A stretch of 64,000 bases of DNA, taken from NCBI GenBank assembly GCA_017795005.1, contig CP051242.1:62001-126000 (forward strand), written 5' to 3'. The notes beneath the pieces were generated by a model. The model had not been told where the DNA came from. It made no database searches and saw only the letters and a program-made list of their open reading frames with translations. This DNA is from Balneolaceae bacterium (lineage in GTDB: Bacteria; Bacteroidota; Rhodothermia; Balneolales; Balneolaceae). The position numbers were made by a program, and so were the translations under genes. Below, piece after piece: positions 18,423 through 46,158 of this stretch (its first letter is position 1; every line of letters starts with the position of its first letter).

Positions 18423-18442
18423 AATGTCATCACCAATAGATT

Positions 18443-22174: not shown

Positions 22175-22275
22175 TTTGAACACCTTATGAAATAAACCTA
22201 CCAATTAATAGCATAGCGTTGTAATACACTAAATAACCGTAATAAATAGCTTATTAACAAGATTTTAAACAACAT

Positions 22276-22308
22276 AAAACCTGATTTTTATGAATATAAT
22301 CAGGTTTT
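22276..22308. terminator. Rho-independent-type terminator downstream of GH30 gene
   Basis: An 11-bp perfect inverted repeat, AAAACCTGATT and AATCAGGTTTT, with an 11-nt loop. It lies 13 bp beyond the stop of the minus-strand GH30 gene. The A/T flanks give a U-run on either strand. It separates the GH30 transcript from the beta-helix genes below. Confidence 0.75.
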
Positions 22309-22320
22309 AGCAAAGTACTT

Positions 22321-23922
22321 TTACTTTATGAGCATCATTTTCTTCGTATCCGTATAACTACCAGCTTCAATTCTGTAAATATAAATTCCACTCGATAAAG
22401 TAGAAGCGTCAAAACTGGCTTTATGTTCACCAGCAGACATTAATCCATTTACTAAGGAAGCTACTTCCTGCCCTAATAGATTATACACTTTCAATGTCAC
22501 ATTACTTGTTGCCGGGAGATAATAAGAGATAGTAGTTACCGGATTAAATGGATTTGGGTAGTTTTGCTTTAATGCAAATTCTCTTGGATAATTCCTTTCT
22601 TCATGTTCATTCGATACAGCAACAAAATCTTTAGAAACAAAAGTGATTATACTTTCTTTTGGAAGCGTAGTTGAAAAAGTATTACCGGTTATATCCAGAT
22701 CTTCCATTTGCTCTACGTCATCATCTTCAGAAGTTATATATCGGGAGAATCCAGTCGTAGTTCCTCCGTTTAGTGTAACATTTATATCCTTGCTACCAGA
22801 TTCGTTATTCACGATAACCAGCACAATTTTTGAATTCAGTGTATCAGTATATGAAGTCACAAAAACATTGTTAAACCCTCTTCCAAATGGTCCTGACGCT
22901 TCTACTCTGTAATCTCCCGGTCTTACAAATCTCGAAAATTGAGACATCACCCAACCTCTTTTGGTAATGGATCCACTATTAGCACGGTCCACAAAATCCC
23001 TGCCGGGATCATCCACATCTACACCGTCATGAATTGGGCTGTAGTATCTTTTTATCTGCCACCAAATGTAGGCGTTCCAGTTTGACTTCATCACTTGAGA
23101 AATCTCTCTTCCAACTAACAGTGCATCCGGCCATATATTTGCAGACCTATCGCTGCTTGTATAGTGTTCCGTCATCCAAATTTCTTTTCCTTTTTCTTCT
23201 GCTAACGGATAGGGAGCTAACCCACCACCATATAAATGTCCTCCAATTATATCTGTTTTAGCATTTGCCAGTGAATCATTTAAAATCGGATCTGAATAAT
23301 TCCTTCTGAACTGAAAAGATTCAGGTGCAATCATTCTCGTAGTAATAGAATCTGCATGATCACGGATAAAAGTAACTATTTCATCAGGGGTCCATTCTGT
23401 CCAACCCCCGCCAATTCCGTAATCAGGTTCGTTCGTGAATGAAATTCCATATAAATTAACATCACGTTCAGCCATATATTGATTAAAATCTTCCAGATGT
23501 GCTGCGTAATCATCGTAATATTCGGGTAGCAGCCGATTATAATTTACTTCAGGATCTAGCATGTTAGAAGGGGGATTCCATGCTGCCGCCCATACGATTC
23601 CGCCCATCTCTATAACTCTTTTCGCAGTTTCAACTTGATTTCCATTTCCCCAAGCCGCGGGGTTTGGAGCTATTCTTAATCGTAAAATATTAAACCCTAG
23701 CTGACCTTCTCCTGTACCATAAGCGGTTTCGACGTCATCCATATTTAAATCATCACCATACCAGTCTACAATGTTAGCTGCACCAAATCCTCTTATCATC
23801 TGTTGGGTACTATCTAAATAGACTTGTACATCCTGGGCAAATATTGATGGAACAGAGAATAGTGCTAGACACATAAAAAGTAATGTGCTTTTTTTAAATA
23901 TTTTTTTGGCTCTTTTTTTCAT
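22321..23922 (-). CDS. T9SS-secreted GH30 (subfamily 8-like) glucuronoxylanase, second copy
   Basis: Secreted 533-residue GH30 enzyme. Signal peptide to about residue 30 (LFSVPSIFAQ), barrel beginning MIRGFGAANI, acid/base Glu165 (SFTNEPDYG), nucleophile Glu252 (IWMTEHYTS), side beta-domain, and T9SS tail (NYPNPFNPVTTISYYLPATS, ending KKMMLIK). WMTEHY is typical of subfamily 8 xylanases. Trp288, Arg292 and Tyr294 fit the glucuronic-acid recognition cluster, although the position next to the Trp is Gln289 rather than the Tyr of the other copy. The predicted reaction is endo-cleavage of glucuronoxylan positioned by the methylglucuronic acid substituent. It is flanked by terminators on both sides (22276 and 24006), so it is probably monocistronic. 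Confidence 0.91.
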   Translation of the reverse strand: MKKRAKKIFKKSTLLFMCLALFSVPSIFAQDVQVYLDSTQQMIRGFGAANIVDWYGDDLNMDDVETAYGTGEGQLGFNILRLRIAPNPAAWGNGNQVETAKRVIEMGGIVWAAAWNPPSNMLDPEVNYNRLLPEYYDDYAAHLEDFNQYMAERDVNLYGISFTNEPDYGIGGGWTEWTPDEIVTFIRDHADSITTRMIAPESFQFRRNYSDPILNDSLANAKTDIIGGHLYGGGLAPYPLAEEKGKEIWMTEHYTSSDRSANIWPDALLVGREISQVMKSNWNAYIWWQIKRYYSPIHDGVDVDDPGRDFVDRANSGSITKRGWVMSQFSRFVRPGDYRVEASGPFGRGFNNVFVTSYTDTLNSKIVLVIVNNESGSKDINVTLNGGTTTGFSRYITSEDDDVEQMEDLDITGNTFSTTLPKESIITFVSKDFVAVSNEHEERNYPREFALKQNYPNPFNPVTTISYYLPATSNVTLKVYNLLGQEVASLVNGLMSAGEHKASFDASTLSSGIYIYRIEAGSYTDTKKMMLIK

Positions 23923-24005
23923 ATCGCTCTTTTAGATATTGACTTAAATTCTCGATGTACAATTCAATAAATGTTTTATTTACACTTAAAATTCCCCTAT
24001 TAAAA

Positions 24006-24036
24006 AAAGCCTGCCCTCGAAGAGAAGGCAGGCTTT
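24006..24036 (-). terminator. Rho-independent terminator downstream of the 24053-27538 gene
   Basis: AAAGCCTGCC and GGCAGGCTTT form a 10-bp perfect stem with an 11-nt loop, followed on the minus strand by a T-run (24002-24008 on the plus strand is A-rich). It sits 17 bp past the stop of the A-A-A-B module protein. Confidence 0.88.
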
Positions 24037-24052
24037 ATAATCCTTAATAATG

Positions 24053-27000
24053 TTACTTAATTAACATCATTTTCTTAGTGCTTACGAAGCTACCTGCTTC
24101 AATACGGTATACATACATACCGCTGGCAAGACTGCTTGCATCGAATTTAACCTGGTGTGCACCAGCATTAAGTCGACCATTAACAAGCGTCATTACTTTT
24201 TGACCTAACATATTGTACACTGAAAGTGTTACTTCAGATGTTTCCGGTAGATCGAAAGCAATATTCGTAGATGGGTTGAATGGATTCGGATAGTTTTGCT
24301 TAAGAGCAAATCTTTCAGGAATACCATCACCATCTATTTCATTACTAACAGCTGGTAATTCAGAAACGAGCATCTTGTCGATATAAACCTCTTCAAGTGT
24401 TAATGAAGTAGTTGTAGCGTTATTAACTCCAAAAACCAGTGAATTAAATGAAGTCATCGAGCCACTTGCATCGGTAGCAGCAACTTCATAGAGGAAGTTA
24501 TCTCCCTCAATTACAGCAGCAACTTCCATTCCACCATTTCCATTAGGATATGCATAGAAGAATATTTCATATTCCCCTGCTGCTGCTATTCCTGAAGTAG
24601 TTACATCAGAAACAGATGATGCTGCGGTATACCATTCTCCACCATCAACTGAAGCAATAGTACCCGTAGTTGCAGATGGAGAGAATAAATATCCACTTCC
24701 TGTTTCTGCTCCGGTCCACACATACCCAACTGTTTCAGTGGAATCAAGTCCGCCAAAGTCAGCGTCAAACAATCCAAATCTGAAACTACCCGGAGTTTCG
24801 AATCCACCGCCTTCAAAGATAGCTACTGCTTCTATTGTAATGGCTTCATCTGCTGTAACTGAAACCGGAATACCAAAATCAGTTGCTACGTTTGCCCAAC
24901 CGGTCGCTGCAGCTGATCCACCAATAGTTACATCACCTACAAGTGCGCCAGGTGTTAGTGCCCATGCACTATCCGTTGCACTGGTTCCACCTAATTTTCC
25001 GCCAAGGAAGCCCCAGTCGGAAGCGTAGAATGGAGAGAATATCGGTAGTGGAATATCGATTGGTTCGCCACGATCCACTTCTACTTCATACAGATTAAAT
25101 TCGGTTACATCGGCATCATCCCCTCCCTGATGAGAGAATACGAATCCGTTGAATTCTGTTTTCTGAGCTGTTGTATCAATATGAATTCCGGAATGCAGAT
25201 AGGTTTCTTCATCTTCATGCATGATATACCATCTGAATTCTGTAGTCCCATCAACTAAAGGACGAACTGACATTTCAAATTCATATACACCTGGCTCCAT
25301 ATTTGCTCGTCTTGGAGATTGATCGGTTACACCCAACTGAATACTTCCACCACTCCAGGTAGAAATCCAGCTTCCACCATTTACAGCCCATGCATTACCT
25401 ACACCGCCTTGCCCGGAAATGGTTCCGTTTGCGCCGGTCTGGTTGGTAATCAGGTAACCAAATGCACTTGATTCGTTGGAAACAAATGCCGCTGAATCGG
25501 TACCCTCATACTGAGTATAACCCCACTGAGCAGAATCAGTATACTGATTATTAAGTGTTCCAATATCAGTATGGTTGTAAATACCAAAACGCATAGGACC
25601 CCAGTTAGCAAGGGTTCCGTTAATTTCCATCTCTCCTCGTACAATTACCGCCTCTTCCAGTGTAGCTGTAACTGGCAATGGACCAAAGCCACCGCGAATC
25701 GCACTCCAGTTAGAACTTGTTGATCCGGGACCGCTTAGATAAGCATCGCCAACAAGAGTAGTCGTATCATTATCTAACGACCAGCCTGAAGAAGCTAAAC
25801 GAGTACCAATTGCTCCCCATTCGTCGATATAGAATGATGAGAAAATCGGATCTGGTATCTCGATCGGAGCACCACGGTCCACTTCAACTTCATAGAGATT
25901 GAATTCTGTTACATCAGCATCGTCTCCGGCCTGATGTGAGAATACAAATCCATTGAATTCTGTTTTTTGAGCAGTAGTATCAATATGAATTCCTGAATGT
26001 AAATAGCTCTCACCATCTTCATGCATGAGGTACCATCTGAATTCAGTAGTTCCATCAGCTAACGGTTGAACGGACATTTCGAATTCATAAACGCCGGGAA
26101 CCATATCAGCTCTTCTAGGAGATTGGATAGTAGTTCCAAGCTGAATACTTCCGCCACTCCAGGTAGAAATCCAGCTTCCGCCATTTACAGCCCAGGCATT
26201 ACCTACGCCGCCCTGACCAGAAATGGTTCCGTTTGCCCCGGTTTGGTTGGTAATAAGGTAACCAAACGCACTTGATTCGTTGGAAACAAATGCCGCTGAA
26301 TCAGTGCCTTCATACTGAGTATAACCCCACTGTGCAGAATCGGTGAATTGATTTTGAAGCGTTCCAATATCGGTATGATTGTAAATACCAAAACGTAGTG
26401 GACCCCAGTTGGCAAGAGTTCCATTAATTTCCATTTCACCTCGTACAATTACTGCTTCTTCCAAAGTAGCGGTAACAGGAAGTTCGCCAAAGCCGCCGCG
26501 AATCGCACTCCAGTTAGAACTTGTTGATCCAGGACCGCTTAGATAGGCATCACCTACAAGAGTAGTTGTATCATTATCTAATGACCAACCTGAAGAAGCT
26601 AAACGGGTACCAATTGCTCCCCACTGATCAACATAAAAAGAAGAAAAAATTGGATCAGGAATCGTAATTGGAGAACCTTTTCCATATTCAACGCCTGAGA
26701 AACTAATTTCTGTTACATCAGAATCAGCAGGTCCTTGATGTGAAAAAATAAACCCATTGTAAGATGTCTTTACTGTAGAAGTATCGGTACCCGGATATAG
26801 AAAATTATCAGTATGTGTACCTGAGTGTAAGTAAGTTTCACCATCTTGGTGCATTACATACCATTTAATCTCGGCAGTTGTATCGTCTACGAATTCAATT
26901 GAGATTTCAAAATCATAAGTACCGGGTTCCATATTTGCACGTCTTGGAGATTGGATAGTTTGTCCAAGTTGAGTGGTTCCACCACTCCATGTAGATATCC

Positions 27001-27538
27001 AGCTACCACCATTAACAGCCCACAGGTTACCAACTCCACCTTGCCCGGAGATTGTACCATTAGCCCCTGTCTGATTACTTATCATATATCCTTCTGCGCC
27101 GGATTCGTTAGATACGAATGCCGCAGAATCAGTGCCGGCGTACTGTATATTTCCCCAAAGAGCGGAGTCTGTACCTGCATAAGCCAGTGAGTCCATTACT
27201 TCATGGTTATACACTCCAAACCGAAGTGGGTTCCACCATGTCATTGTTCCATTAATACTAAATGAACCACTTACTACAAGTGCTTCACCAACAGCAAGAT
27301 CTACCGGGCTATCAAAACCACCACGTATGGCAGACCAATTGCTACTTGTTGAACCGGGACCACTAAGGTAAGCTTCACCTGCTGCTGTAGCTCCGGTGTT
27401 GTCCAGTGTCCAACCTGAAGATGCTAATCGAGTACCAATAGCTCCCCAATCATCAATTGCGGTTTGTGCATATAATGCGCCTGAAACCAGTAACACAACT
27501 GGTAATAAAAGCGCTTTTAGCATTGTACCTTTTTTCAT
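24053..27538 (-). CDS. Large T9SS-sorted protein with three tandem A modules and one B module
   Basis: An 1161-residue secreted protein that I cannot assign to a named family. Signal peptide to about residue 25 (LLVSGALYAQ). Module A occurs three times, beginning near residues 30, 305 and 573 (each opening with WGAIGTRLASSGW and holding GQGGVGN-WAVNGGSWISTW). Copies two and three are almost identical with a 268-residue (804-bp) period. A divergent module B (about 842-1065: SDWGFLGGKLGG, FEGGGFETPGSFRFG) and a T9SS tail ending KKMMLIK follow. The beta-rich, Trp- and Asn-rich modules lack an obvious active site, so multivalent binding to polysaccharide is the most reasonable guess. It lies between the GH30 gene and a beta-helix gene and has its own terminator. 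Confidence 0.78.
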   Translation of the reverse strand: MKKGTMLKALLLPVVLLVSGALYAQTAIDDWGAIGTRLASSGWTLDNTGATAAGEAYLSGPGSTSSNWSAIRGGFDSPVDLAVGEALVVSGSFSINGTMTWWNPLRFGVYNHEVMDSLAYAGTDSALWGNIQYAGTDSAAFVSNESGAEGYMISNQTGANGTISGQGGVGNLWAVNGGSWISTWSGGTTQLGQTIQSPRRANMEPGTYDFEISIEFVDDTTAEIKWYVMHQDGETYLHSGTHTDNFLYPGTDTSTVKTSYNGFIFSHQGPADSDVTEISFSGVEYGKGSPITIPDPIFSSFYVDQWGAIGTRLASSGWSLDNDTTTLVGDAYLSGPGSTSSNWSAIRGGFGELPVTATLEEAVIVRGEMEINGTLANWGPLRFGIYNHTDIGTLQNQFTDSAQWGYTQYEGTDSAAFVSNESSAFGYLITNQTGANGTISGQGGVGNAWAVNGGSWISTWSGGSIQLGTTIQSPRRADMVPGVYEFEMSVQPLADGTTEFRWYLMHEDGESYLHSGIHIDTTAQKTEFNGFVFSHQAGDDADVTEFNLYEVEVDRGAPIEIPDPIFSSFYIDEWGAIGTRLASSGWSLDNDTTTLVGDAYLSGPGSTSSNWSAIRGGFGPLPVTATLEEAVIVRGEMEINGTLANWGPMRFGIYNHTDIGTLNNQYTDSAQWGYTQYEGTDSAAFVSNESSAFGYLITNQTGANGTISGQGGVGNAWAVNGGSWISTWSGGSIQLGVTDQSPRRANMEPGVYEFEMSVRPLVDGTTEFRWYIMHEDEETYLHSGIHIDTTAQKTEFNGFVFSHQGGDDADVTEFNLYEVEVDRGEPIDIPLPIFSPFYASDWGFLGGKLGGTSATDSAWALTPGALVGDVTIGGSAAATGWANVATDFGIPVSVTADEAITIEAVAIFEGGGFETPGSFRFGLFDADFGGLDSTETVGYVWTGAETGSGYLFSPSATTGTIASVDGGEWYTAASSVSDVTTSGIAAAGEYEIFFYAYPNGNGGMEVAAVIEGDNFLYEVAATDASGSMTSFNSLVFGVNNATTTSLTLEEVYIDKMLVSELPAVSNEIDGDGIPERFALKQNYPNPFNPSTNIAFDLPETSEVTLSVYNMLGQKVMTLVNGRLNAGAHQVKFDASSLASGMYVYRIEAGSFVSTKKMMLIK
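25016..26623 (-). repeat. Tandem 804-bp intragenic repeat (two near-identical A modules)
   Basis: Two adjacent units of about 804 bp (roughly 25016-25819 and 25820-26623) encode nearly the same 268 residues. Long stretches are identical at nucleotide level, for example around the Trp-Gly-Ala-Ile-Gly-Thr start of each unit. A third, more diverged unit lies at about 26624-27451. This indicates recent in-frame duplication or gene conversion. Confidence 0.85.
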
Positions 27539-27576
27539 GTTTTATCCTTGTTTTATTTGTGTTAGTTAAACCAATT

Positions 27577-27609
27577 CATCTTGCGGGTACATACATACCT
27601 GCAAGATGA
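27577..27609 (-). terminator. Imperfect hairpin downstream of beta-helix gene
   Basis: CATCTTGC-GGTA pairs with TACC-GCAAGATG around a short ATACA loop, with one bulge. It has no clear T-run. It is the second stem-loop after the 27630 stop and may protect or end the transcript. Confidence 0.4.
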
Positions 27610-27622
27610 GTTTGGTTTTAAA

Positions 27623-27646
27623 ACCCTGATTATTTAATCAGGGTTA
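27623..27646 (-). terminator. Terminator hairpin overlapping the stop codon of the 27630 gene
   Basis: AACCCTGATTA and TAATCAGGGTT form an 11-bp perfect stem with a 2-nt centre, followed on the minus strand by TTTTAAAAC. The stem includes the last codons and stop of the beta-helix gene, so termination is coupled closely to the end of translation. Confidence 0.7.
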
Positions 27647-29480
27647 ATTTTCTGGTTAGAGAAACTCCTGATTCTGCTTCCAATCGATAATAATAAATAC
27701 CACTTGAAAGAGTAGCGGCATCAAATGTTAACTCATGAGTACCTGCTGATTGAATTCCATCAAACAGAACAGCTACCTGCTGACCCAATGAGTTAAATAC
27801 TTTCAGTGAAATCTTACCTGTTGCCGGTACGGTATAAGAAATATTTGTGGTTGGGTTAAACGGATTTGGATAGTTCTGATCAAGCCTAAACCCTCTTGGA
27901 GTATCCGGTGATGATTCATTGCTATTTATGATACCTTCAGCATTACCTGTTGTCATCCAGTTATTAATTGTTTGCCAATCATTAGCTTGCTGGTTTGCTT
28001 TCCAGTCTGCTAATTCATCAGGATACCAGTTAAGATCCCCCAGTGGATAACCACCCCAAGCTGCTTCTAAATAAGTTGAATTGCTATATGAAAGGTCTTC
28101 CGGTAGTGGCCATTTCTGTAAGAAACCAGCGTTTGGTTGGTATGACCAGTCTATATCTGAATTATCATTCCATTTAAACATCACAAAATCTAGCATGGTA
28201 TCCTGATTGGTAGGAGGCACAGTAAATCCAGCCGGTTCATCCATAAACTCCATAACATTCAGATTTGGGAAATATTTCTTACCCTCTGCATCAGTTGAGT
28301 CATAATACTCCATAGCTCCTTCACCAATTGCCGGAGGTGGAAAACGAAGAAGGATATCGTCGCGATTTCTTATCTGGTCTTGACTCCAGGGGCTGTTTGT
28401 ATACCAATCCAGAAGATAATCTTCATGGTAGTACACATTATTACCCATAAATACCTGACGATCTTCGTCTTCGAAATCTACCTCAAATCCCAGCGAATCT
28501 ACCATTACCACATTCTGGACCAATCCACCACCGGGAGGATTACACAAACCATCTTCGAAATCATCGAACTCAGGATCTTCACCTGGACAAACATCGATAG
28601 GGCGGTATCCCATCATATTGGTATTCACAAAAATGGAATTGGAAATGGATAAGTCTTCCCACCATCCGGTTTGAATCGCCCACTCAATAGAATTAATTAG
28701 GGTTACGTGATTCATGTAAAGATGAGAAACAAATTCATTCCCCTCCATCATCACGATTCTACTCAGATTCGAAAACGTTGTATTCTCAAAGACAAGACTA
28801 TCAATATGAAAGTCTGTAGATTGGAACGGAAATGAAACCGCTCTTCCGTAATACTGGAAGTGAACATCCGTACCATTTCTGAAGTACGTATCTCTGAATA
28901 CACCAACCCAATTATCTGCTTTTATAGTTACTGCACCACCAGCTTCTGGCCCAATAGGAAAATAGTCAAATAACATCCCTTCAAAGGTTCCATATTCCTT
29001 ATCAGCAACTTCGCCTTCTCCTACTAAAGCGTCTTCAAATACAATACCAGTACTTACCTGAGCACCCAAAATATCTGCATATCGAACCCAGATATTCTTC
29101 ATGGTTAAATCACCATAAGTTTGAATAATATATGCACGATCTATTTCTTCTTCCGTCCAAACAATTTGTGGCGGAGCGGAGTTTTGAACCGTAGTTGCAT
29201 CTGCATCACCTGCTCTTAATGGCTTTGGTGCCACAATTTCCAGATTCTCTCCTTCGTCCATGAATATACTGCTACTTAGTACATACACTTCATAAGGCTT
29301 TAATTTAAATACGGTATTATTTATGTCTCCGTTAGCCTTAACATCGTCAATAGCCGCATTTAAAGTCCCATAGGTGAAACCGGATTCATAATAACCCTGC
29401 ACTTCTACGGTATCTTTCTGAGCCATCAAGCTTCCGCTTAAGAACATAATTACTGATAATAATAGTAACGAATGCCTCAT
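27630..29480 (-). CDS. T9SS-sorted beta-helix-like protein, paralogue 3, next to TonB receptor
   Basis: A 616-residue exported protein, third member of the family seen at 18443 and 20285. It has a signal peptide (LSGSLMAQ), the KDTVEVQGYYESGFTYGTLN block, rung-like segments (YGDLTMKNIWVRYAD, IDSLVFENTTFSNLSRIVMM, NHVTLINSIEW), a GGYPLGDLNWYPDEL region and a T9SS sorting domain (NYPNPFNPTTNISYTVPATG, ending KLTLIK). Its closest relative by eye is 18443, sharing the MMGYRPIDVC and FEDGLCNPPGGGL segments. It starts 37 bp after the TonB-dependent receptor stop and is probably in the same operon, the position that a SusD gene holds in classical Bacteroidota polysaccharide loci. A partner role in oligosaccharide capture is therefore plausible but unproven. 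Confidence 0.8.
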   Translation of the reverse strand: MRHSLLLLSVIMFLSGSLMAQKDTVEVQGYYESGFTYGTLNAAIDDVKANGDINNTVFKLKPYEVYVLSSSIFMDEGENLEIVAPKPLRAGDADATTVQNSAPPQIVWTEEEIDRAYIIQTYGDLTMKNIWVRYADILGAQVSTGIVFEDALVGEGEVADKEYGTFEGMLFDYFPIGPEAGGAVTIKADNWVGVFRDTYFRNGTDVHFQYYGRAVSFPFQSTDFHIDSLVFENTTFSNLSRIVMMEGNEFVSHLYMNHVTLINSIEWAIQTGWWEDLSISNSIFVNTNMMGYRPIDVCPGEDPEFDDFEDGLCNPPGGGLVQNVVMVDSLGFEVDFEDEDRQVFMGNNVYYHEDYLLDWYTNSPWSQDQIRNRDDILLRFPPPAIGEGAMEYYDSTDAEGKKYFPNLNVMEFMDEPAGFTVPPTNQDTMLDFVMFKWNDNSDIDWSYQPNAGFLQKWPLPEDLSYSNSTYLEAAWGGYPLGDLNWYPDELADWKANQQANDWQTINNWMTTGNAEGIINSNESSPDTPRGFRLDQNYPNPFNPTTNISYTVPATGKISLKVFNSLGQQVAVLFDGIQSAGTHELTFDAATLSSGIYYYRLEAESGVSLTRKLTLIK

Positions 29481-29517: not shown

Positions 29518-32500
29518 TTAGTATCTGACTCTAATTCCAATATTCCCGGTTAACCCATAGTTCTGAACATTTGTAAATCCCCGAATCGAACGTTGAGAAG
29601 ATTCTGTATTCGCATCATTCAGATTCTGAATATTCAGGAATAACTCAGCTCCTCCATCGAACCATGGTAGTCGCTGACGTGCTGAAAAGTCTAATCTCAG
29701 ATAGTCTCTGTTAAAACTATCATTCTCCCGAAAAACTCCTCCACTACCATTAAATACGTTACTTGTGTAGAGCACTGAAACTCGTGCTGAAAACCCTTTA
29801 TTGTCATACCCGAGATAGGTATTAAGTACGTGGTTAGGCTGACCAGCTAACCTTGAAACATATGATGAATCGAACAATGCAGGTTCCGGCATTGGACGAG
29901 GCCCATCATTATTTATTACAATAACTACATCATAATATGGGGTTTCTATTTCAGAAAATATGCGTGCGTAATTTGCACCAAATACCATATTTACGAATGG
30001 TTTTGGCATGTACCAGAAATTATGCTGGAAATCGAACTCCAATCCTCTAACCAGACCATCATTTGGGTTATTAACAGGTCTGACAATAGTAGCGGATGGT
30101 CCTGTTGGAGTTACTAAAAATGCATCATCCTGACAGCTTAAAATAGAAGGGTATCTTTCACCTAACCGATCTCTTTGATACTGGTTACATACTATTTGAT
30201 AATTACTTAACTGATCTAAACCAGCTTCTTCTGCTAAGTCAGCCCGATAAGAAGCAGTATAAACAAAATTTTCTACTGTCTTCTGAAATGCCCCTACTGA
30301 TAATAATCCCAATTTATTTGCATAGAATGAAACACTTACATCATGATTAAAAGACTTTGCAGGAACAAGATCAGGGTTACCAGTGTAGATTGTTCCAGGA
30401 TTTCCCTGGGTAATAGTAAATTTTGGAGATAGTTGTTGGTAATCCGGTCTGGCAAGTGTTTGTGTATACGCATATCTGATATCCATCCAATCAAAGGGTG
30501 AGAACTTCGTTTGCATCATTGGCAACAGAAACGAGTTATCTGCAGTCGAGGTAGTATCAAACATGATTTGATTTTGAGCATTTCGCTGATCTCTGGCATT
30601 ATACGCAAAGTATTCTGAATTCACTTCCTCGTATCTAACCCCACCTATTACCATGAGTTTGCCTATATCAAACTTGGTCATCGCATAGGTAGCTAGTTTA
30701 TCCTCTCTGTATTCATAATCGTTAGCAAGTTGTTGATAAGGACCATCATACCAACCACCCTGAGACCCGGAGCTTACTTCTTCATTAGATGCATCGAACT
30801 CAGGGTTACCAATTACAAAATTAAGGATATCAATAAGTATTCCCGGATTTGAAACGAAATAAACTTCGCCGAACCGGTTTCCTAAAAAGGAGTCGTATAA
30901 ATCGTCATTATTTGAAGTAAGAGTTGCTGCTGTTATAACTCCCTGATCATTTGGAATTAACCCAAACTCGTCTCTAATGGTAACTGCCAGATTATTAGCA
31001 ATATTATTTCCTGGATCAGCTGAATTTGCATTTCCATCAAAACCTAAATAGGGAGTTTCCTGATCGGTAGAAGTTCTTTGATTAACAATCTGCCCACCAA
31101 ACTTAAAATATCCAGTTACATTTGTACCTACATTGAATGGAAGTTTGAAATCTGCTTTATATGAAAACCTGTCTTCTTCATAGAAATTACTGAATAAGTT
31201 CCCTGAACGAAGTATTACACTTTCAGTTCCACGGAAGGTAGCCTGTCGTGCCACCAAATCTTCCGGAATAATATTTTCACGTTCAGCAATTTCTACGGCT
31301 TGAGTTTGATTGAAGGTGAGTACAGGAGAATCATCCAGAGTATTTCTGGCCCCTGTATAACTAGCAGATAAGTCAATTTCCAGCCAGCTTAAATCATAGT
31401 CTAGTTTTAATGAATGAACTCTCTGGGTAATTTCATTTTCCCCTTTAGAAAGTGTCCAATTCATTCTTCCATCATTGTAATTTATGTTCTGATTGTGGTC
31501 AGTATAATCTCTCTGGCTTGTTGAAAACATATTCACAAATTTCAATGAACCATTTGGGATTTTATAGTCCATAATAAGGTTAGCTCCTAACCTGGTACGG
31601 GTTTCTATATGCCGGTTAAAGCTCACACTGGAAACCTCAACGGGTACATATCCGGTTAATGGATCTACCTCAGCATTACCGGCCGCCAAAGCATAACCTG
31701 CATTCAAGTTATCCGCATCCCTGTCATAAGACTCAGCATTAATCAAGGCATAAATACCTAAATTTTCATCTAAAAAACGGTTACTTACGGAAGCAACTGC
31801 TCTATAATTGCCTAGTGTATTACTTTTAGCTGTGTACCCTTGCGCCACATCGCATCCCAAGCAAGGCCTGATGGAGCTTCACGAAGCTCCATGTTAACGG
31901 TACCACCAATAGAGTTTGCATCCATATCAGGGGTTAAGGATTTATATACCTCAATCATTCTTATCATGTACGGTGAAACACTGGTTAAATCCACGCTACG
32001 GTCATTACTTACGAACCCGCTTCCAACTCCCGGATTAGAAGAAAGACCAATACTTGAGCTTCCGGTTGATGCTAATTGAATACCTTCGACCTGTATTGAA
32101 TTGTACTTAGGAGCAAGACCCCTGATTACTACTTTATTATCTTCACCAGAACTTTGAGTAGTCGAAACACCCGGAAGTCTACTTAGTGCTGAAGCTGCAT
32201 TAAAATCCGGTAATTCCTGAATTTTAGTTTCAGAAACTACATTAACAATATTGTCTGATTGAATTTGTTGATTGATTGCTTCACGCTGACCCTGAGCCTG
32301 TGCTGAAACAATCACCTCTTCCCCTTGAACCGTTTCCTGACGAAGCGTTATATCCAGATCAATCGTTTCACCACCAACTACTTCCAATTCAACCTGGAAA
32401 TTAGCATATCCAAGTGATGTAGCCATTAAAATATACGTTCCTGCCGGTATTCTGGTAATTCTGTACTCACCGTCAATGTTTGTTGCAGAGCCAATACTTG

Positions 32501-32660
32501 TTCCCTGTAAACCAACATTTACTCCAATGAGCGCCTCACCGATAGTTTCATCTGTTACAATTCCTCTTATTTGACCATATCTAGAATTTTGTGCAAAAAT
32601 TGAGCTTATACTAAGGATAGAAATGCCCAACGTAAGAAACAGTACTTGTTTATTCCACAT
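29518..32660 (-). pseudogene. TonB-dependent outer-membrane receptor interrupted by a one-base frameshift
   Basis: Two overlapping frames together encode a complete receptor of about 1045 residues. The N-terminal part (32660 to 31812, ATG at 32660) has a signal peptide (ILSISSIFAQ), a carboxypeptidase-regulatory-like beta domain (about 28-110: GQIRGIVTDETIGEALIGVN) and the plug (VVIRGLAPKYNSIQVEGI, SIGGTVNMELREAPSG), then runs off frame to an early stop. The C-terminal part (31860 to 29518) supplies the remaining barrel and ends in an aromatic residue (GIRVRY), as expected for an outer-membrane protein. Continuity breaks at about 31845, where one base appears to be missing. It may be a real mutation, phase variation or a sequence error. 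The receptor is of the Caulobacter/Xanthomonas-like type rather than a SusC with SusD partner. If functional it would import xylo-oligosaccharides. Confidence 0.85.
31840..31850 (-). other. Frameshift site in TonB-dependent receptor
   Basis: On the minus strand the sequence reads GATGTGGCGCAAGGG. The upstream frame reads Met-Trp-Arg-Lys and then hits TAG about ten codons on. The downstream frame reads Ala-Gln-Gly-Tyr-Thr-Ala-Lys, the expected barrel start. Adding a single G (TGG GCG CAA GGG) restores one continuous frame. There is no long homopolymer, so a slippage-based programmed shift is not evident. Confidence 0.8.
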
Positions 32661-32690
32661 ACCCAAAAGGTTAGATGTTAATATGCATAG

Positions 32691-33063: not shown

Positions 33064-34389
33064 CTATTTTAAGAGCATCATTTTCTTTATTTCCCTGAAG
33101 TCTGGTGTCACCAATTCGTACAAGTACATTCCTGATGGCAAATCCTGAGCATTGAAAGAAATACTATATGTTCCGGCAGCCTGATACCTGTTAACAAGTT
33201 CCCGGATTTTTCTTCCAGTTATATCGTACACATTAAGCTGAACTTCAGACCCTGCTGCAATTTGATACTGAATTTGAGTATTAGGATTAAATGGATTTGG
33301 ATAGTTTTGACTTAACTCAAATCCTGCAGGTGTTAAGTTTTCATCAATTAGTTCATTTGATACAGCAAAAACAACATTTGCCGTATCAACATAATCTTCA
33401 AGCCAATCCATAGCATCTTTGGGACGCAGATCAAAAATGTATGCTTCCTGAGCAGAGCGCCACAAGCCGGGTCTCCAGCCCCATAAAGTTACTCCTTCAA
33501 CAGCAGGGTGCTCCCAAAAAACCGGAAATATTTGTTTATACTTTTCCAGCTGGTATGCCTCTGAACCATCATCATCTAAATTAGGGTTTCCATCTATATC
33601 CATTTCCGTGACCTGAATAGGCAAATAACTTTCGGCCAATATATTCAGTACGGTGTTGATTGTTTGAGGAGTAGTGCCTGAGCTTAATGAACTCCCATTA
33701 TTAAACGCATGAGCCTGAACCCCAATACCATCGATCAGATTTCTGTCTTTGAGCAGGTCGACAATTTCCAGATAGCGTCTGGCTTCATTTGGGTTACTTA
33801 CAATTCCATAATCGTTTATTATCAATTTTGTACTATCTGGAAAAATGTCTCTGGCCATTTGAAATGCAGTAATTATCCAATCCCATCCCGTTTCTCCTTC
33901 ACCACCTAAAGCATCCATATAGCCACCGTCTTGTTCTCCATCCGGTGGATCATGTAATGGCTCGTTTACTACTTCGAGATAATCGATATCTGGGTATCTT
34001 TCCGCAACCGCTTCGAACCATTCCTGAATCTCTTCAATTTGCTCCTCCTCACTTAATCCACTAATCCATCCCGGCTGCTGATTTCCCCAAACCAAAACAT
34101 GGAAACGAAATGGGAAACCGTTATTCTTGGCAAGGTTGTAGGCATCATCTAGTCCGCCCCAATTCATTTGATCTCTTGTTCCTTCAACAGATCCCCATTT
34201 ACCAGAATTTTCTGGGGTAACCTGGTTCCAGTATCGGGTAAAAAGTTCAACCTGATCATTTGAATGGACATTACCAAGCCATTTTGTTTTTCCTTCAGCA
34301 AACTGGGAAAAAACATCATCACTTAACAATAATGATAATGCCATGAAAAGAGTAAAAAATGCCGGATTAAGTCTTATACTATTTTTCAT
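33064..34389 (-). CDS. T9SS-secreted GH10 endo-xylanase
   Basis: Endo-beta-1,4-xylanase of 441 residues. Signal peptide to about residue 29 (LLLSDDVFSQ), GH10 barrel at about 32-335 with the acid/base Glu143 in LEVVNEPLHD and nucleophile Glu262 in QVTEMDIDGN, and a T9SS sorting domain (NYPNPFNPNTQIQYQIAAGS, ending KKMMLLK). The barrel is a close copy of the catalytic domain encoded upstream at 34421 (shared WNQVTPEN-GKWGSVEGTRDQMNWGGL region) but lacks carbohydrate-binding modules, which points to duplication with module loss or gain. It is the third gene of an operon led by a GH43 gene, 31 bp after its paralogue, and is followed by a strong terminator. Confidence 0.93.
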   Translation of the reverse strand: MKNSIRLNPAFFTLFMALSLLLSDDVFSQFAEGKTKWLGNVHSNDQVELFTRYWNQVTPENSGKWGSVEGTRDQMNWGGLDDAYNLAKNNGFPFRFHVLVWGNQQPGWISGLSEEEQIEEIQEWFEAVAERYPDIDYLEVVNEPLHDPPDGEQDGGYMDALGGEGETGWDWIITAFQMARDIFPDSTKLIINDYGIVSNPNEARRYLEIVDLLKDRNLIDGIGVQAHAFNNGSSLSSGTTPQTINTVLNILAESYLPIQVTEMDIDGNPNLDDDGSEAYQLEKYKQIFPVFWEHPAVEGVTLWGWRPGLWRSAQEAYIFDLRPKDAMDWLEDYVDTANVVFAVSNELIDENLTPAGFELSQNYPNPFNPNTQIQYQIAAGSEVQLNVYDITGRKIRELVNRYQAAGTYSISFNAQDLPSGMYLYELVTPDFREIKKMMLLK

Positions 34390-34420
34390 CGTTTATTCTT
34401 AATTATATCATTTCAATTTT

Positions 34421-36796
34421 CTATTTAACTAATAACATCTTTTTCACATCTCTGTAAGACCCCGCTCGTATCTCATATATATAAACTCCTGTTGAAAGGC
34501 CTGCAGCATTGAAGTTAATCGTGTACGTTCCGGAGCTATGTTGGCGATCTACTAATTTTTGAACGAGTCTCCCTGTAATATCATATACCGAAATTGAGAC
34601 ATTTGAATTACCTGGAACATTATAGTTAATCTGTGTATTTGGATTGAAAGGATTTGGGTAGTTCTGTGAGAGACTAAAATCTTTTGGAGAAACATCTCCC
34701 GTTGATTCAAATTCATTCGAAACCATTACATCAGAGTTTTCCACATACTCGCGGAGCCAGTCCATGGCAGGGCGGTGCTCATTATTTTCGTTTACAATAA
34801 ATGCCTGTTGGTTATCTCTCCACAACCCCGGACGCCAGCCCCAAAACGTGATCCCTTCAACTGAAGGGTGCTCCCAATAAGCAGGAACAATACCCTGATA
34901 CTTTTGAAGCTGTATCTGATCATTTTCAGAGTCCCCTCTGGCGAAGTTTCCATCAATATCCATTTCTGTTGCTTGAATTAACAAGCCGGTTTCTTCAGCA
35001 ATTAGATCTAGTACAGCTTTTTGTGTTTCCGGAGTAACGGTTGAATTAATTTGAGTACTTCCATTGTTAAAGGCATGTGCCTGTACTCCTACTCTGTCGA
35101 TTAAATCTCTGTCTTTAAGGAGTTTTATAATCTCAACATAATTTCTAGCTTCAGAAATATTGCCTACGATTCCATAATCATTGATCATTAATTTAACGCT
35201 ATCCGGAAATATTTCTTTTGCCATTTCAAAAGAAGTAATCACCCAATCCCAACCGGTTTCACCTGCTCCACCCAAGGCTTCATAATATCCTCCACTCCCA
35301 TCATCATTTGTTTGATCAGTGGGCGGATCATGCAAGGGTTCGTTCACGACTTCCAGATAGTCGATGTCCGGATAGCGATCGGCTACCGCCTGAAACCATT
35401 CTTCAATTTCTTCGAGCTGATCTTCCTGTGATAAACCTTTCATCCAACCCGGTTGTTGATTCCCCCAGATAAGAACATGAAATCTAAAAGGGAACCCGTT
35501 GTCTTTTGCTAATGCGTAAGCTGCATCTAACCCTCCCCAATTCATTTGATCTCGGGTACCTTCTACCGAACCCCATTTACCCGCATTTTCCGGTGTAACC
35601 TGATTCCAGTACTCAGTAAACCTTGTTGCCTGAGAATTGCTGTATACATTCCCCATCCATTTTGCCTTTCCCCGTGCCATAGGTTCTAACACAATTTCAG
35701 GTTCAATTGGTTTTTGAATCCTTACACTATCAATCCAGATACTCTGCCCTACATTATCGGCAAAACTAAAATGAATGGGAGCCCTTCCAACTGTATCATT
35801 TGCTCCTACCTGAAATTGAAAACTAAACTCCTGCCATTCAGTAGTTAGATTAACCTGATCACTTCCTATCCTTCCAAATTCGTTAAAGGCCGGATTCCCA
35901 ACCGTAAAATTAGCAGTTGTTCCGTTTATATTGGTTCTGGCCCACGCAGAAAAAGTGTAGTCAATGCCCGGTTCTACCGGAAATAATTCATTGATAGCCT
36001 GTATACTCCATTGATTATTCCCCTGGGTTGTTACATCAACCCTTAGTGCCCTATTGCCATCTTTAACAGTATCATCGACAATAGCGAATGTTGCTTCGCC
36101 TGTATCCTGAAGCTCAAAGGTCCATCCTTCCACTGCAAGCGTATCGGCTCTTTCAGTTACTGGTGAATTTTCAAAGCTACCATTAGAATTTTGTGACCCA
36201 TTTGGGTTCGGTCCAATAATTTCAAGATTATCAATATATATGATTCCATTTTCGTTATTAGCAAAATTCATTGGAATACCGAAACGCATCGTATTTTCTT
36301 CATCAGCTGCGGTCGCAGTATATTCCATTTCAAACTTCTGCCACTCAGTTGTAAGTGAATCATCAAATTGCCCAAACCTTGCCCATCCACCGCTTTCAGG
36401 CAATCCCAAATAAAAGCGCGCTGTTCTGGTAGTTGTATCCGCTTTTAACCAAACGGAAACCATATAAGTATCTCCTTCAGTTACCAGCAGGTTTTCATTT
36501 ACTGCTTCCACATGCCAATCATCCCCGTCATTAAACACCCCTACACTAACTTTAAGAGCTTTTCCATCTCCATCCTGGGCATCATCAACAATCTCAAATG
36601 TTGCAGCTGCACCATTTTCTGTAATATTGAATGACCATCCCAAACCATTTTCAGATACAGTATCCAATTCAAAGTCTTCAAAACTTCCATTTGTTGTAAA
36701 GTCTTTTATTGGTTGTGCGAATACGGATGAGATTCCTCCAAAGAATAAGAGAAATAATGACAGGCTCAGAATATTTTTTTTGTAGTAATTCAACAT
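34421..36796 (-). CDS. T9SS-secreted GH10 xylanase with two N-terminal CBM4/9-like modules
   Basis: Modular endo-xylanase of 791 residues. Signal peptide to about residue 28 (GISSVFAQ); two carbohydrate-binding modules of the CBM4/9 type (about 32-195 and 202-362, each opening NGSFE and closing with an IYIDNLEI or IWIDSVRI strand); a GH10 domain (about 375-700) with acid/base Glu486 in LEVVNEPLHD and nucleophile Glu611 in QATEMDIDGN; and a T9SS tail (NYPNPFNPNTQINYNVPGNS, ending KKMLLVK). CBM4/9 modules in this setting commonly bind xylan or amorphous cellulose, so it should act on insoluble substrate outside the cell. It sits 21 bp after the GH43 gene and 31 bp before the module-less GH10 copy. 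Confidence 0.94.
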   Translation of the reverse strand: MLNYYKKNILSLSLFLLFFGGISSVFAQPIKDFTTNGSFEDFELDTVSENGLGWSFNITENGAAATFEIVDDAQDGDGKALKVSVGVFNDGDDWHVEAVNENLLVTEGDTYMVSVWLKADTTTRTARFYLGLPESGGWARFGQFDDSLTTEWQKFEMEYTATAADEENTMRFGIPMNFANNENGIIYIDNLEIIGPNPNGSQNSNGSFENSPVTERADTLAVEGWTFELQDTGEATFAIVDDTVKDGNRALRVDVTTQGNNQWSIQAINELFPVEPGIDYTFSAWARTNINGTTANFTVGNPAFNEFGRIGSDQVNLTTEWQEFSFQFQVGANDTVGRAPIHFSFADNVGQSIWIDSVRIQKPIEPEIVLEPMARGKAKWMGNVYSNSQATRFTEYWNQVTPENAGKWGSVEGTRDQMNWGGLDAAYALAKDNGFPFRFHVLIWGNQQPGWMKGLSQEDQLEEIEEWFQAVADRYPDIDYLEVVNEPLHDPPTDQTNDDGSGGYYEALGGAGETGWDWVITSFEMAKEIFPDSVKLMINDYGIVGNISEARNYVEIIKLLKDRDLIDRVGVQAHAFNNGSTQINSTVTPETQKAVLDLIAEETGLLIQATEMDIDGNFARGDSENDQIQLQKYQGIVPAYWEHPSVEGITFWGWRPGLWRDNQQAFIVNENNEHRPAMDWLREYVENSDVMVSNEFESTGDVSPKDFSLSQNYPNPFNPNTQINYNVPGNSNVSISVYDITGRLVQKLVDRQHSSGTYTINFNAAGLSTGVYIYEIRAGSYRDVKKMLLVK

Positions 36797-36817: not shown

Positions 36818-38566
36818 TTAGTTTTCAGAGTATGCAAACATACCCAATAAAGTACCCACAAAGCCACCAGCTCTGGATGTACTTAAAATAGTACCGTCTG
36901 CTCCCTCAAATAATTTAGTCCAGGAGTCTCCATTATCAGAGTAGAGAAAATCATATTCTCCAGCTCTTGCATTAATTTTCAGATAGTAGGTACTTCCAAA
37001 ATTTTCGGGTAACACTTCGGAGGCGATAACTTCCTGTGTTTCTCCTTCTTGCTTCTGTAAAAAGATTTCCTTTTCACCACTTTGATTTATAGTAATTCCC
37101 ATCTTATAGTTAAATAGTTCTCCCTGAAAGGCAGAAATCCCGGCTTCATCTCCTGCACTCTCTGGTTCATAAATCATTTTTGTTGAAGCTGATCCATATA
37201 CATGTTGTTGCCTTCTTCCAATAAAAGAAGGGTTCCCAAAACCACTTAGCTTTTCCGGACGCGCCTGAATGGATAAGTAATCGTTATTAATAAACTCCCA
37301 CCAGGTTGATCTGGGTGTTCTTAACATCAACCAGTTGAAAGCAAGCTTATCATTGTCAAAGTCGTCTGTATAAGTGAAGTTTCCGTTGGTAGGAGGATTC
37401 GCTTTTTCAGCATATGGTAAATTTGGCCTTTTCAGTTTAACAGGAACTTCTTCATCTCCTTTAAGAATGGTTGGCCATCCATCTTCCCAAGATACAGGAA
37501 GTAAATAGGTTTCCCGACCAATATTAAAGTTTACACCATCATATAACCGCACTCCAAGAAATATAGTCCACCATTCTCCATTTGCGGTTTCTACCATGTC
37601 AGCATGACCTACATATTCAACCGGAAAATCACGATCTACAGGTATATGACGTTGGGTTAAAATTGGATTATTTGGCCCCGGAGTAAATGGACCTAAAGGA
37701 TTATCTCCTTTCAATACGACCTGAGAATGGTTCGGACCAGTACCACCTTCGGCGGCATGCAAAAGATATTCTCCGTTTACTTTCATTAAGTGCGGACCCT
37801 CAATCCAAATTGGTTTAGTAGATATATCCACACCACCATTTATAATTACTTTGGGTTCGCTAATACTTTTATTTGTTTCCAAATCATATTCCCGAATCCA
37901 AACTGCTCTGTGTCCCTGATAAAGTGGTTCTTCTTCCGGAGCGTCGTTATTTATGATGTACACTTTTCCATCATCATCAAAAAAGATGGACGGATCAATT
38001 CCCCCAACTCTATCCAGCCAAATTGGTTCAGACCATGGTCCTGCAGGATCAGTAGCTGTCACCATAAAATTACCTCCGGCATCAACTAATGTATTCAATA
38101 CATAAAAAGTACCATCATGGTATTCAATAGTAGGGGCAAAAACTCCTCTTGAGATTCCAAGGCTATCCACAGGCATCTGAGACGGGCGATCTAACACATG
38201 GCCGATTTGAGTCCAATTCACTAAGTCTGTGCTATGAAAAATTGGTATTCCGGGGAAATGAGCAAAAGAAGAATTTACCATATAATAATCATCTTCTACT
38301 CTCACAATACTCGGATCGGGATAATATCCCGCGTTGATAGGATTTACATACTCATCTTCACCAACATCTAAATCTTTATAGTATGGATCATTCCCTTTGT
38401 ATTTAAACCAATCAAATACCGGATCAGAAGTTGGAGTTGGACTATTATCAGAAGTACAGCCAGTTGTTGTGACCGCCATAAGTACAATCACAATACCAGC
38501 TTTGATAATTTGACCCATACTTTTGTTGGGAATCGCTTCCATAAAATTCTGAAAATTAAGTGACAT
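36818..38566 (-). CDS. GH43 beta-xylosidase-type lipoprotein with C-terminal beta-sandwich
   Basis: GH43 enzyme of 582 residues. The propeller (about 70-375) has base Asp84 in GYYPDPSIVR, Asp191 in GGIDPSIFF and general acid Glu256 in IWIEGPHLMK. A concanavalin-like domain (about 395-580) completes the usual beta-xylosidase/arabinofuranosidase architecture. A lipobox (TTTGC, Cys37) marks it as a lipoprotein. The start is uncertain: the first ATG (38566) gives a long polar N-region, while an ATG at 38518 gives a more standard lipoprotein signal (MGQIIKAGIVIVLMAVTTTGC). It leads the operon with two GH10 genes and is preceded by a perfect operator palindrome (38587-38601), and diverges from the esterase gene. 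Confidence 0.9.
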   Translation of the reverse strand: MSLNFQNFMEAIPNKSMGQIIKAGIVIVLMAVTTTGCTSDNSPTPTSDPVFDWFKYKGNDPYYKDLDVGEDEYVNPINAGYYPDPSIVRVEDDYYMVNSSFAHFPGIPIFHSTDLVNWTQIGHVLDRPSQMPVDSLGISRGVFAPTIEYHDGTFYVLNTLVDAGGNFMVTATDPAGPWSEPIWLDRVGGIDPSIFFDDDGKVYIINNDAPEEEPLYQGHRAVWIREYDLETNKSISEPKVIINGGVDISTKPIWIEGPHLMKVNGEYLLHAAEGGTGPNHSQVVLKGDNPLGPFTPGPNNPILTQRHIPVDRDFPVEYVGHADMVETANGEWWTIFLGVRLYDGVNFNIGRETYLLPVSWEDGWPTILKGDEEVPVKLKRPNLPYAEKANPPTNGNFTYTDDFDNDKLAFNWLMLRTPRSTWWEFINNDYLSIQARPEKLSGFGNPSFIGRRQQHVYGSASTKMIYEPESAGDEAGISAFQGELFNYKMGITINQSGEKEIFLQKQEGETQEVIASEVLPENFGSTYYLKINARAGEYDFLYSDNGDSWTKLFEGADGTILSTSRAGGFVGTLLGMFAYSEN

Positions 38567-38586
38567 CGGTTAAATATTTTTAATTT

Positions 38587-38601
38587 GCGCAATAATTGCG
38601 C
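38587..38601. promoter_or_regulatory. Predicted LacI-family operator upstream of GH43-GH10-GH10 operon
   Basis: GCGCAATAATTGCGC is a perfect odd-centred palindrome, a variant of the shared motif with AAT/ATT in place of AAA/TTT. It is 20 bp upstream of the first GH43 start codon, the same distance as the operator before lacI. Confidence 0.65.
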
Positions 38602-38720
38602 ATGAAGTGGACAAAGAAAGTAGCTTAAAATTTATTTTAAAAAAACTGAAAAAGCCGTATATCCTTATAAAATCTCTTCAATGATGTATTAATGCGGTTT
38701 TCATTGTTTTGATACTCAAT

Positions 38721-38735
38721 AAGCAAATTTTGCCC
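38721..38735. promoter_or_regulatory. Predicted LacI-family operator upstream of esterase gene
   Basis: AAGCAAATTTTGCCC is a 7-1-7 near-palindrome lying 15 bp before the chosen ATG (38751) of the SGNH esterase. Its position just ahead of the ATG supports that start over an upstream in-frame TTG at 38709, which would put the operator inside the coding sequence. Confidence 0.65.
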
Positions 38736-38750
38736 AAAATTAGTTCAGTC

Positions 38751-39968
38751 ATGTTAAACAGAATATTCTTTCTTACGCTATCATTCGTGTTAATACTTTT
38801 TCTTCTAATAAATTGCACCCCACCTAAAACCAGTGATAAATGGGTCGGAACCTGGAGTACTTCACAACAGCTTACTGAGCCAAGGAATATGCCTCCGGAA
38901 CCAGGTTTATCAGGAAATACAATTCGGCAGGTTGTACGTGTGTCTATTGGAGGTGATGATCTAAGGCTTAGGGTATCAAATGAGTTTGGTACTGAACCTG
39001 TAAGTATTAATTACGTTCAAATAGCCTCTTCCCTGGGTGGAAGCACCATTGATGTAGCAACTAATGCTTCGGTAATTTTTAACGGCTCTTCTTCTCTAAC
39101 CATACAGCCAGGAGAAGCAGCCCTATCCGATCCATTCGACTTCACTCTTGAAGCATTATCTAATGTAGCTATAACGATGTATATCGAATCTGTTGGAGAC
39201 GAATTAACTGGGCATCCCGGTTCCAGAACAACCTCATATATTTTGGAAGGTGACCATGTTTCTGATGCAGAATTTGAGAACTCAGTGAATACTGATCACT
39301 GGTACCTTATTGATGCCATTGATGTAAAAGCACCAGAGCACTTTGCTGCTGTGGCTACTCTTGGAAATTCAATTACAGATGGGCGCGGTTCAGGAACGAA
39401 CAAACAAAACCGCTGGCCGGATGAACTTTCTAAGCGATTACGTGCTAATCCCGAAACAGAACATATTGCTGTATTAAATCAGGGGATAGGCGGTAATTGT
39501 GTTCTAAGAGCATGCCTTGGACCTGCGGCAATAGAACGATTTGAGCGTGATGTACTTAATCAGCCAGGTATTAAGTGGCTCATTATTATGGAAGGCATTA
39601 ACGATATTGGCGGAGTTCGAACAGAAGAACAAGCCGAAGAAATTGCTACTGCTTTGACTGCTGCTTATGAAGACATGATTGCTCAGGCTCATGAAGCAGG
39701 AATCAAAGTTTATGGAGCTACATTACTTCCTTTTGGAGGTTCATTTTATGATCGTCCGGCAAGTGAACAAGCCCGTTCTGCTGTAAATGAATGGATTAGA
39801 ACAAGCGGGAAGTTTGATGGTGTTATTGATTTAGAGAAGGCACTTGAAGATCCTGATAATCCCGGGAAGTTACTTCTTGTAGCTGATGACGGAGACGGAC
39901 TTCATCCGAGCGAAGTCGGACACAGAATGATGGCTGAGGCTGTGGATTTATCTTTGTTTATTGATTAA
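38751..39968 (+). CDS. SGNH/GDSL-hydrolase lipoprotein, probable xylan deacetylating esterase
   Basis: Esterase of 405 residues with a lipobox (LLINC, Cys22). An N-terminal beta-rich domain (about 30-195, WVGTWSTSQQLTEP) precedes the SGNH core: Ser207 in block I (TLGNSITDGRG), Gly in block II (NQGIGGN), Asn in block III (EGINDIGG) and the Asp382-x-x-His385 pair in block V (DGLHPSEVGH). The complete set of catalytic residues supports activity. The substrate is inferred from location: acetyl groups on xylan or xylo-oligosaccharides. It is divergently transcribed from the GH43-GH10-GH10 operon, with one predicted operator near each start. It converges on the GH10 lipoprotein gene with a 16-bp spacer. 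Confidence 0.88.
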   Translation: MLNRIFFLTLSFVLILFLLINCTPPKTSDKWVGTWSTSQQLTEPRNMPPEPGLSGNTIRQVVRVSIGGDDLRLRVSNEFGTEPVSINYVQIASSLGGSTIDVATNASVIFNGSSSLTIQPGEAALSDPFDFTLEALSNVAITMYIESVGDELTGHPGSRTTSYILEGDHVSDAEFENSVNTDHWYLIDAIDVKAPEHFAAVATLGNSITDGRGSGTNKQNRWPDELSKRLRANPETEHIAVLNQGIGGNCVLRACLGPAAIERFERDVLNQPGIKWLIIMEGINDIGGVRTEEQAEEIATALTAAYEDMIAQAHEAGIKVYGATLLPFGGSFYDRPASEQARSAVNEWIRTSGKFDGVIDLEKALEDPDNPGKLLLVADDGDGLHPSEVGHRMMAEAVDLSLFID

Positions 39969-39984
39969 AAGGATTCTCTAACAC

Positions 39985-41166: not shown

Positions 41167-41227
41167 GGGATGATTTTTGAAATTTAATTCCATCATTTCC
41201 TCTGCCTTAGGTTTCAAACGAAACATG

Positions 41228-42628: not shown

Positions 42629-42662
42629 GCGGGTATTGTTAGACTGTTACTGTTTAATGCTG

Positions 42663-45026: not shown

Positions 45027-45040
45027 TCCTTACATATGTC

Positions 45041-46156: not shown

Positions 46157-46158
46157 AA

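Follow-up and report, generated by a model that had tools for sequence, protein, structure and literature searches.

TonB-dependent receptors with a lid at the cell surface are known from the SusC/SusD pairs of Bacteroidota (PMC7782687) and from BtuB/BtuG (PMC10404256). In the former, a receptor gene is followed by the gene of a surface protein within a glycan locus (PMC7782687), and the latter shows that a surface lid other than SusD is possible on a TonB-dependent transporter, BtuG being a lipoprotein for vitamin B12 (PMC10404256). In the xylan locus of Rhodothermus marinus (Rmar_1067-1081), the TonB-dependent receptor Rmar_1070 stands beside Rmar_1071, a hypothetical protein marked as extracellular and cell-attached and placed in the same predicted transcript (PMC6987092, Table 1); the description given there makes no claim that the two are a pair, and it is possible, going by the table description, that they are an example already in print of the arrangement reported here. 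For Melioribacter roseus, the text on starch and xylan enzymes mentions a SusC/SusD/SusE operon and no pair of a receptor with a T9SS-sorted protein (PMC3534657). Among the literature matches listed, going by titles and the starts of abstracts, none treats such a receptor and T9SS protein as a pair.

The window analyzed here, a stretch of 64,000 nucleotides from a Balneolaceae bacterium (contig CP051242.1 of assembly GCA_017795005.1), carries a xylan locus in which a split receptor gene (29518-32660, minus strand) is accompanied by the following genes:

33064-36796, minus strand: GH10 proteins with T9SS sorting, two in number (33064-34389 and 34421-36796), both lying upstream of the receptor, from Pfam
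36818-53027, strand not given: rest of the xylan core, with GH43, GDSL esterase, GH10, MFS_2, GH3, GH10, GH43, GH67, SDR, isomerase-like protein and FGGY kinase, from Pfam
41228-42628, strand not given: MFS_2 sugar transporter, from Pfam
53212-54210, minus strand: LacI-type regulator, right-hand end of the locus, from the gene list

GH10, GH43, GH67, GH3 and a LacI regulator are shared with the R. marinus locus, which unlike this one also holds a SusC/SusD pair (PMC6987092). To the left, the locus continues for about 5.3 kb past the window edge, where a further GH10, a further GH43 and part of another CotH-type protein are encoded; the window has no tRNA. Beside the locus, at 54403-58441, genes for circularly permuted ATP-grasp, alpha-E, proteasome-like and transglutaminase-like proteins stand in a row, which we take to be a known kind of cluster.

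The receptor gene is divided between two open reading frames that are one base out of frame and overlap, in different frames, by some 50-65 bases:

31812-32666, minus strand: 5' receptor half, CarboxypepD_reg-like domain and plug, from the ORF list, Pfam, TIGR01782 and the orthologue alignment
31843-31844, minus strand: frame break, two bases where intact relatives carry a codon, from the orthologue alignment
29518-31860, minus strand: 3' receptor half, TonB-dependent beta-barrel, from the ORF list, Pfam, TIGR01782 and the orthologue alignment

The 5' half, which probably starts at the ATG at 32660 and, judged by eye, likely has a signal peptide, matches CarbopepD_reg_2 and Plug in Pfam, and the 3' half matches the barrel family PF00593. 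As in TIGR01782 (TonB-Xanth-Caul) receptors, the halves match consecutive parts of that model (positions 2-136 for the plug half, 162-866 for the barrel half); the receptor differs from them by the added N-terminal CarboxypepD_reg extension. Taken apart, the halves score 134.5 and 199.5 bits, neither passing the whole-protein cut-off of 310, and the three intact orthologues scanned all exceed it (321.8, 320.6 and 316.5 bits). Plug and barrel follow each other in one chain in 9/9 orthologues and lie in two frames in the window. By these profile matches, the gene descends from a TIGR01782 member, and the two pieces as written are no longer one member.

This is not a SusC/SusD pair: the receptor scores much too low for SusC/RagA, and no SusD lies close by. 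Against TIGR04056 (SusC/RagA, cut-off 368.25 bits), the plug half scores 66 bits and the three orthologues 62-77 bits, in the N-terminal part only, with no match for the barrel half, whereas the orthologues match TIGR01782 over its whole length. The neighboring protein encoded at 27630-29480 has no SusD match in Pfam, and the two SusD families searched genome-wide give one PF07980 match (25.9 bits, cut-off 23.1) and one PF14322 match below cut-off, both far away. PF07980 was found in 14 of the 15 related genomes searched; the remaining one, G014, has none, yet it supplies four of the receptor pairs counted below.

Nine intact orthologues, L010 (genome G023), L159 (G073) and L039-L045 (seven named metagenome-derived genomes), each form one open frame across the site, 1030-1078 codons from stop to stop, with barrels 68% (G023), 70% (G073) and 54-58% (the other seven) identical to that of the window, and on this alignment the ancestral receptor gene was intact. 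Around the site the nine read W (Y in two), two residues (mostly QQ) and GYTAKS. The window has the W in the frame of the first ORF (TGG, 31847-31845) and QGYTAKSN in that of the second (from 31842), with the relatives' codon falling between, and the break is therefore placed at 31843-31844. The first-pass annotation, which had called for comparison with relatives, attributed the separation of plug and barrel of a normal receptor to loss of one base near 31845; the two ORFs and the single open frames of all nine orthologues bear out both the frameshift and, within a base or two, its position, but they do not single out the lost base, which the annotation had given as G. It was also right that the receptor is dead as written: the plug ORF terminates after about 12 off-frame residues and the barrel ORF, whose listed start (TTG 31860) is mechanical, has by eye no signal peptide of its own, so that an early-ending plug fragment and a barrel with no export signal would leave a receptor null. 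The annotation had also called it the only such receptor of the locus, and PF00593 (E up to 0.001) indeed finds no second one in the window or within 20 kb on its left side. Across the genome PF00593 gives 22 rows, or 21 places when the duplicated contig ends are counted once. The genome was searched for a further copy of this receptor and gave none; the nearest match is 29% identical and belongs to a GH130 locus. Solved structures related in sequence to the barrel ORF numbered none at E up to 0.001. The description of the xylan locus as otherwise intact stands at the level of list inspection, in which no other split gene was noticed among the 38 listed ORFs.

Within the order, the receptor is present in three of 128 genomes (the window genome G000, G023 and G073; E up to 1e-100), and the two genus-mates have distant matches only; according to record titles, orthologues occur in this order, Ignavibacteria, KSB1 and other lineages. 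In a congener, G001, the same flanking genes enclose a compact xylan locus (G001:C1:1197822-1209214). The LacI regulator, FGGY kinase, isomerase-like protein, GH10, GH3 and MFS_2 transporter all have matches there, as does a further GH10; about 3.4 kb of it has no match, and for the receptor, GH67 and the partner proteins nothing exceeds 150 bits. From this gene content, xylan-derived sugars are likely used in the genus without this receptor at this place.

Several features of the gene suggest that the base loss is either recent or an assembly error, since the barrel is not accelerated, no second frameshift or stop is present, and the site is neither slippery nor a long homopolymer. Relative to the intact L010, with seven outgroups, the barrel shows no acceleration (chi2 0.03-1.72), and 12 of 242 columns invariant in the other sequences are changed, within the 4-18 obtained by leaving out intact sequences in turn, which argues for a recent lesion. 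Consequently an old decay, in which the receptor has long been a pseudogene and the species no longer imports xylan oligosaccharides through it, appears exceedingly unlikely with the barrel evolving at the rate of an intact orthologue and the ORF list showing neither a stop codon nor another frameshift over 3.1 kb. The congener's locus does indicate that life without the receptor is possible, and the plug half would also suit decay, with more private changes than L010 against 6/7 outgroups (chi2 up to 4.12) and 5 of 101 otherwise invariant columns changed (1-7 for intact sequences); this plug-half excess does not fit the simplest picture of a recent loss.

It is very unlikely that the break is tolerated by the cell, whether through programmed frameshifting, on/off switching by slippage or a functional two-piece receptor. 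The overlap of the frames, the position of the break between plug and barrel, and an in-frame ATG at 31572 inside the barrel ORF, with AGGAG 11 bases upstream, are compatible with such a reading, but the overlap has no slippery heptamer X XXY YYZ of the kind expected for a programmed -1 ribosomal frameshift, and the longest homopolymer within 15 bases of the break is 3, which leaves no run for phase variation by slippage. Any shift would moreover be confined to two bases if the conserved residues on both sides were kept, all orthologues are read in one frame, a product from 31572 would be short of about the first 100 barrel residues, and none of the barrel-ORF starts examined precedes an export signal by eye. 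A search for a functional reading (slippery site, homopolymer, or restart with its own export signal) yielded nothing convincing.

Like the first-pass annotation, we see two explanations to be taken seriously, an assembly error or a real mutation, between which reads decide. We lean somewhat towards a real, recent mutation; the break stands in the written sequence, and we infer, at a little better than even chance, that the base was lost in the living cell. An assembly or consensus error, in which case the living gene would be intact and the receptor would work, is a substantial possibility that falls short of even, and it would equally account for nine intact orthologues and for a gene with no further lesion and no decay of its barrel. 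To compare rates of such lesions, about 1.08 Mb of the window genome and about 1.04 Mb of the congener G001 were surveyed for frameshift candidates in orthologues (identity 45% or more, coverage 60%). With G001 proteins placed on the window genome, 325 and 294 genes (372,429 and 304,359 aligned bases) gave 2 and 1 candidates, a total of three other than the receptor in 619 orthologous genes and 676,788 aligned bases; the reverse survey gave 2 and 2 candidates in 326 and 294 genes (365,604 and 305,826 bases), or 4/620 in 671,430 aligned bases, one of the four being a weak 46% match that is probably not a gene. The candidates in the window genome, with names and sizes judged by eye, are:

G000:C1 about 366815, strand not given: M24-like peptidase, net -8
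G000:C1 about 2471720, strand not given: M14-like peptidase, net -1
G000:C1 about 2713442, strand not given: GFO/IDH-like oxidoreductase, net -11

Frameshift candidates are no commoner here than in the congener, making up about 0.5% of surveyed genes in both, so the assembly is not visibly error-prone. At 3/619, 0.18 lesions are expected in 38 ORFs and the probability of at least one is 0.17; one such lesion among 38 ORFs is not rare. We judge the net losses of 11 and 8 bases to be less typical of consensus error and to look biological. The one-base loss in the M14-like peptidase, also away from any long homopolymer, makes a low rate of random one-base consensus errors possible. The untrimmed ends of the genome's single contig, with a direct overlap of 24,387 bases (L046-L049) in which genes are counted twice, suggest a long-read assembly with little finishing and to that extent favor an error. 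Against an error, the two copies of this overlap, which may not be independent, are identical throughout, and the break has only short runs, where the errors that persist in long reads most often concern homopolymer length (PMC8812927). Internal stops flagged in the same surveys (3 and 4 in the window genome, 1 and 2 in the congener) were not counted, most looking by eye like spurious frames, and a laxer internal-stop count was dropped because it captured mostly sequence near the N-terminus. One flagged internal stop in the window genome, in the gene for a 185-aa protein, looks real.

The first-pass annotation had found a dead receptor surprising in such a locus. With frameshift candidates at this frequency in both genomes, and with a congener whose compact xylan locus at the corresponding position lacks a match to the receptor, that surprise is weaker.

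More interesting than an ordinary frameshift lesion is the unit that the receptor forms with a T9SS-sorted protein. By gene order and sequence comparison the receptor gene is one member of a conserved pair of genes, a point that the first-pass annotation missed. The partner and the genes related to it in the window are:

27630-29480, minus strand: partner, 616-aa protein with an N-terminal part modelled as parallel beta-helix and a C-terminal T9SS sorting domain, from profiles, model and synteny
24053-27538, minus strand: 1161-aa protein with lectin-like (ConA-type jelly roll) repeats and a T9SS sorting domain, from profiles and a moderate-confidence model
20285-22204, minus strand: partner paralogue, 51% identical, from sequence comparison
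18443-20284, minus strand: partner paralogue, 64% identical, from sequence comparison
16551-18422, minus strand: protein paralogous to the lectin-repeat protein at 24053-27538, likewise with a T9SS sorting domain, from sequence comparison

The stretch at 16551-29480 thus comprises beta-helix-type and lectin-repeat T9SS proteins, one other T9SS protein, and then paralogues of both, a set that, by sequence, seems to have been duplicated behind the receptor.

A relative of the window partner is encoded in every orthologous locus examined: it lies directly after the receptor in all nine, as the next same-strand gene in the seven named loci (L039-L045), in G023 and in G073. In the order, strong partner matches (E below 1e-200) occur in exactly the three genomes that have the receptor; in one more, G054, a weaker match (32% identity) stands beside a distant receptor. 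The pairing extends to more distant receptors. As in 7/7 named loci, a T9SS-tailed protein is encoded by the next same-strand gene, at a gap of -23 to 192 bases, in 19/19 sampled relatives, which comprise 18 receptor genes from the top of the receptor search, three down to the lowest taken being left out (G021:C5, G021:C4 and G056:C162, the last near a contig end), plus G073, itself an orthologue. As a control, only 1/19 other receptors of the window genome has a T9SS-tailed next gene, the control coming from one genome and the test set from others. Next genes of two control receptors fall at or just above the 1e-4 cut (L128 at 1e-4, L129 at 1e-3), and two more have a sorting domain close by, a strong one on the opposite strand (L130) and one on the second gene (L140).

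These partners are related to one another. All 20 (the 19 and that of the GH130 locus) match a profile of the window partner from which the sorting domain was removed, at full-sequence E of 5e-9 or better in a search of 20 sequences with filters off, and all 20 fall in one group by linked BLAST matches. Against a background of 1788 proteins (window genome and G001), five proteins match the profile at E up to 1e-3, namely the window partner with both of its paralogues, the one that accompanies the genome's second receptor, and the protein directly after G001:C3:329440-330705, which is a receptor. The second TIGR01782 receptor of the genome lies within L078:5971-14916, together with a T9SS-tailed 877-aa partner, an SSF symporter and GH130, in what may be a mannan locus organized around the same kind of pair.

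The sorting domain of the partner scores above cut-off in two families (PF18962, 38.4 bits against 27; TIGR04183, 41.4 bits against 23), and by this criterion the partner is predicted to be a T9SS-exported surface protein. Its AlphaFold2 model, built from ten sequences, averages a pLDDT of 55; over residues about 20-260, which form short repeated strands, values are mostly 60-92 and drop in places to 43-50, and the model from about 260-530, up to the sorting domain, is not trustworthy. The best VIA-align match is the PL6 structure 7dmk (Z 20.8, rmsd 3.6, 258 residues aligned, model range 18-462), followed below the PL6 alginate lyases by many parallel beta-helix proteins, with PL3 at Z about 15; the top PL6 matches cover residues 424-745 of those chains. 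Foldseek matches are weak (E 3.5e-4 at best), no solved structure is related in sequence to the partner alignment at E up to 0.1, and Pfam finds Beta_helix below threshold in 4 of the ten partners and CBM_35 above cut-off in two larger ones. As modelled, the N-terminal part is probably a parallel beta-helix fold like those of PL6 and PL3. For the lectin-repeat protein (24053-27538; model mean pLDDT 69), Foldseek is led by legume lectins and Emp46/47; the best E there is about 2e-5, and TM-scores lie around 0.3-0.5. The modelled folds of both proteins would fit glycan capture at the cell surface.

The partner accordingly differs from the surface component of SusC/SusD pairs in being T9SS-sorted and probably beta-helical, not a SusD lipoprotein, and from BtuG in its T9SS sorting and its place in a glycan locus; the T9SS-sorted partner may fill a SusD-like role. 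We tentatively propose, as an idea that could well prove wrong, that each carbohydrate receptor of this branch has a fixed partner, a beta-helix protein exported by the T9SS, which captures glycan and either passes it on to the barrel or caps the barrel, a SusD-like job done by an unrelated protein using another export route, and that the broken gene encodes the receptor of one such pair. In its intact form the receptor would take in xylan oligosaccharides after their capture at the surface by the neighboring T9SS-sorted proteins, beta-helical and lectin-like, and these sugars would be hydrolysed by the GH67, GH43, GH3 and GH10 enzymes, with uptake through the MFS_2 transporter.

If real, the lesion would mean that this carbohydrate-type (TIGR01782-like) receptor lost one base recently in the lineage or strain. 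Translation would then yield a signal peptide, the N-terminal extension, the plug, about 12 out-of-frame residues and a stop, and no barrel could reach the outer membrane. With 2.3 kb going untranslated, polarity may also reduce the expression of the downstream T9SS-sorted partner genes.

For this organism, the frameshift matters for annotation and for growth on xylan, as the locus as written has no importer. If the receptors do pair with T9SS-sorted proteins, a capture partner becomes recognisable where no SusD adjoins the receptor. This would apply to glycan loci of this order, Ignavibacteria, KSB1 and other orthologue-holding lineages, and rules for locus prediction that require a SusC/SusD pair could miss such loci.
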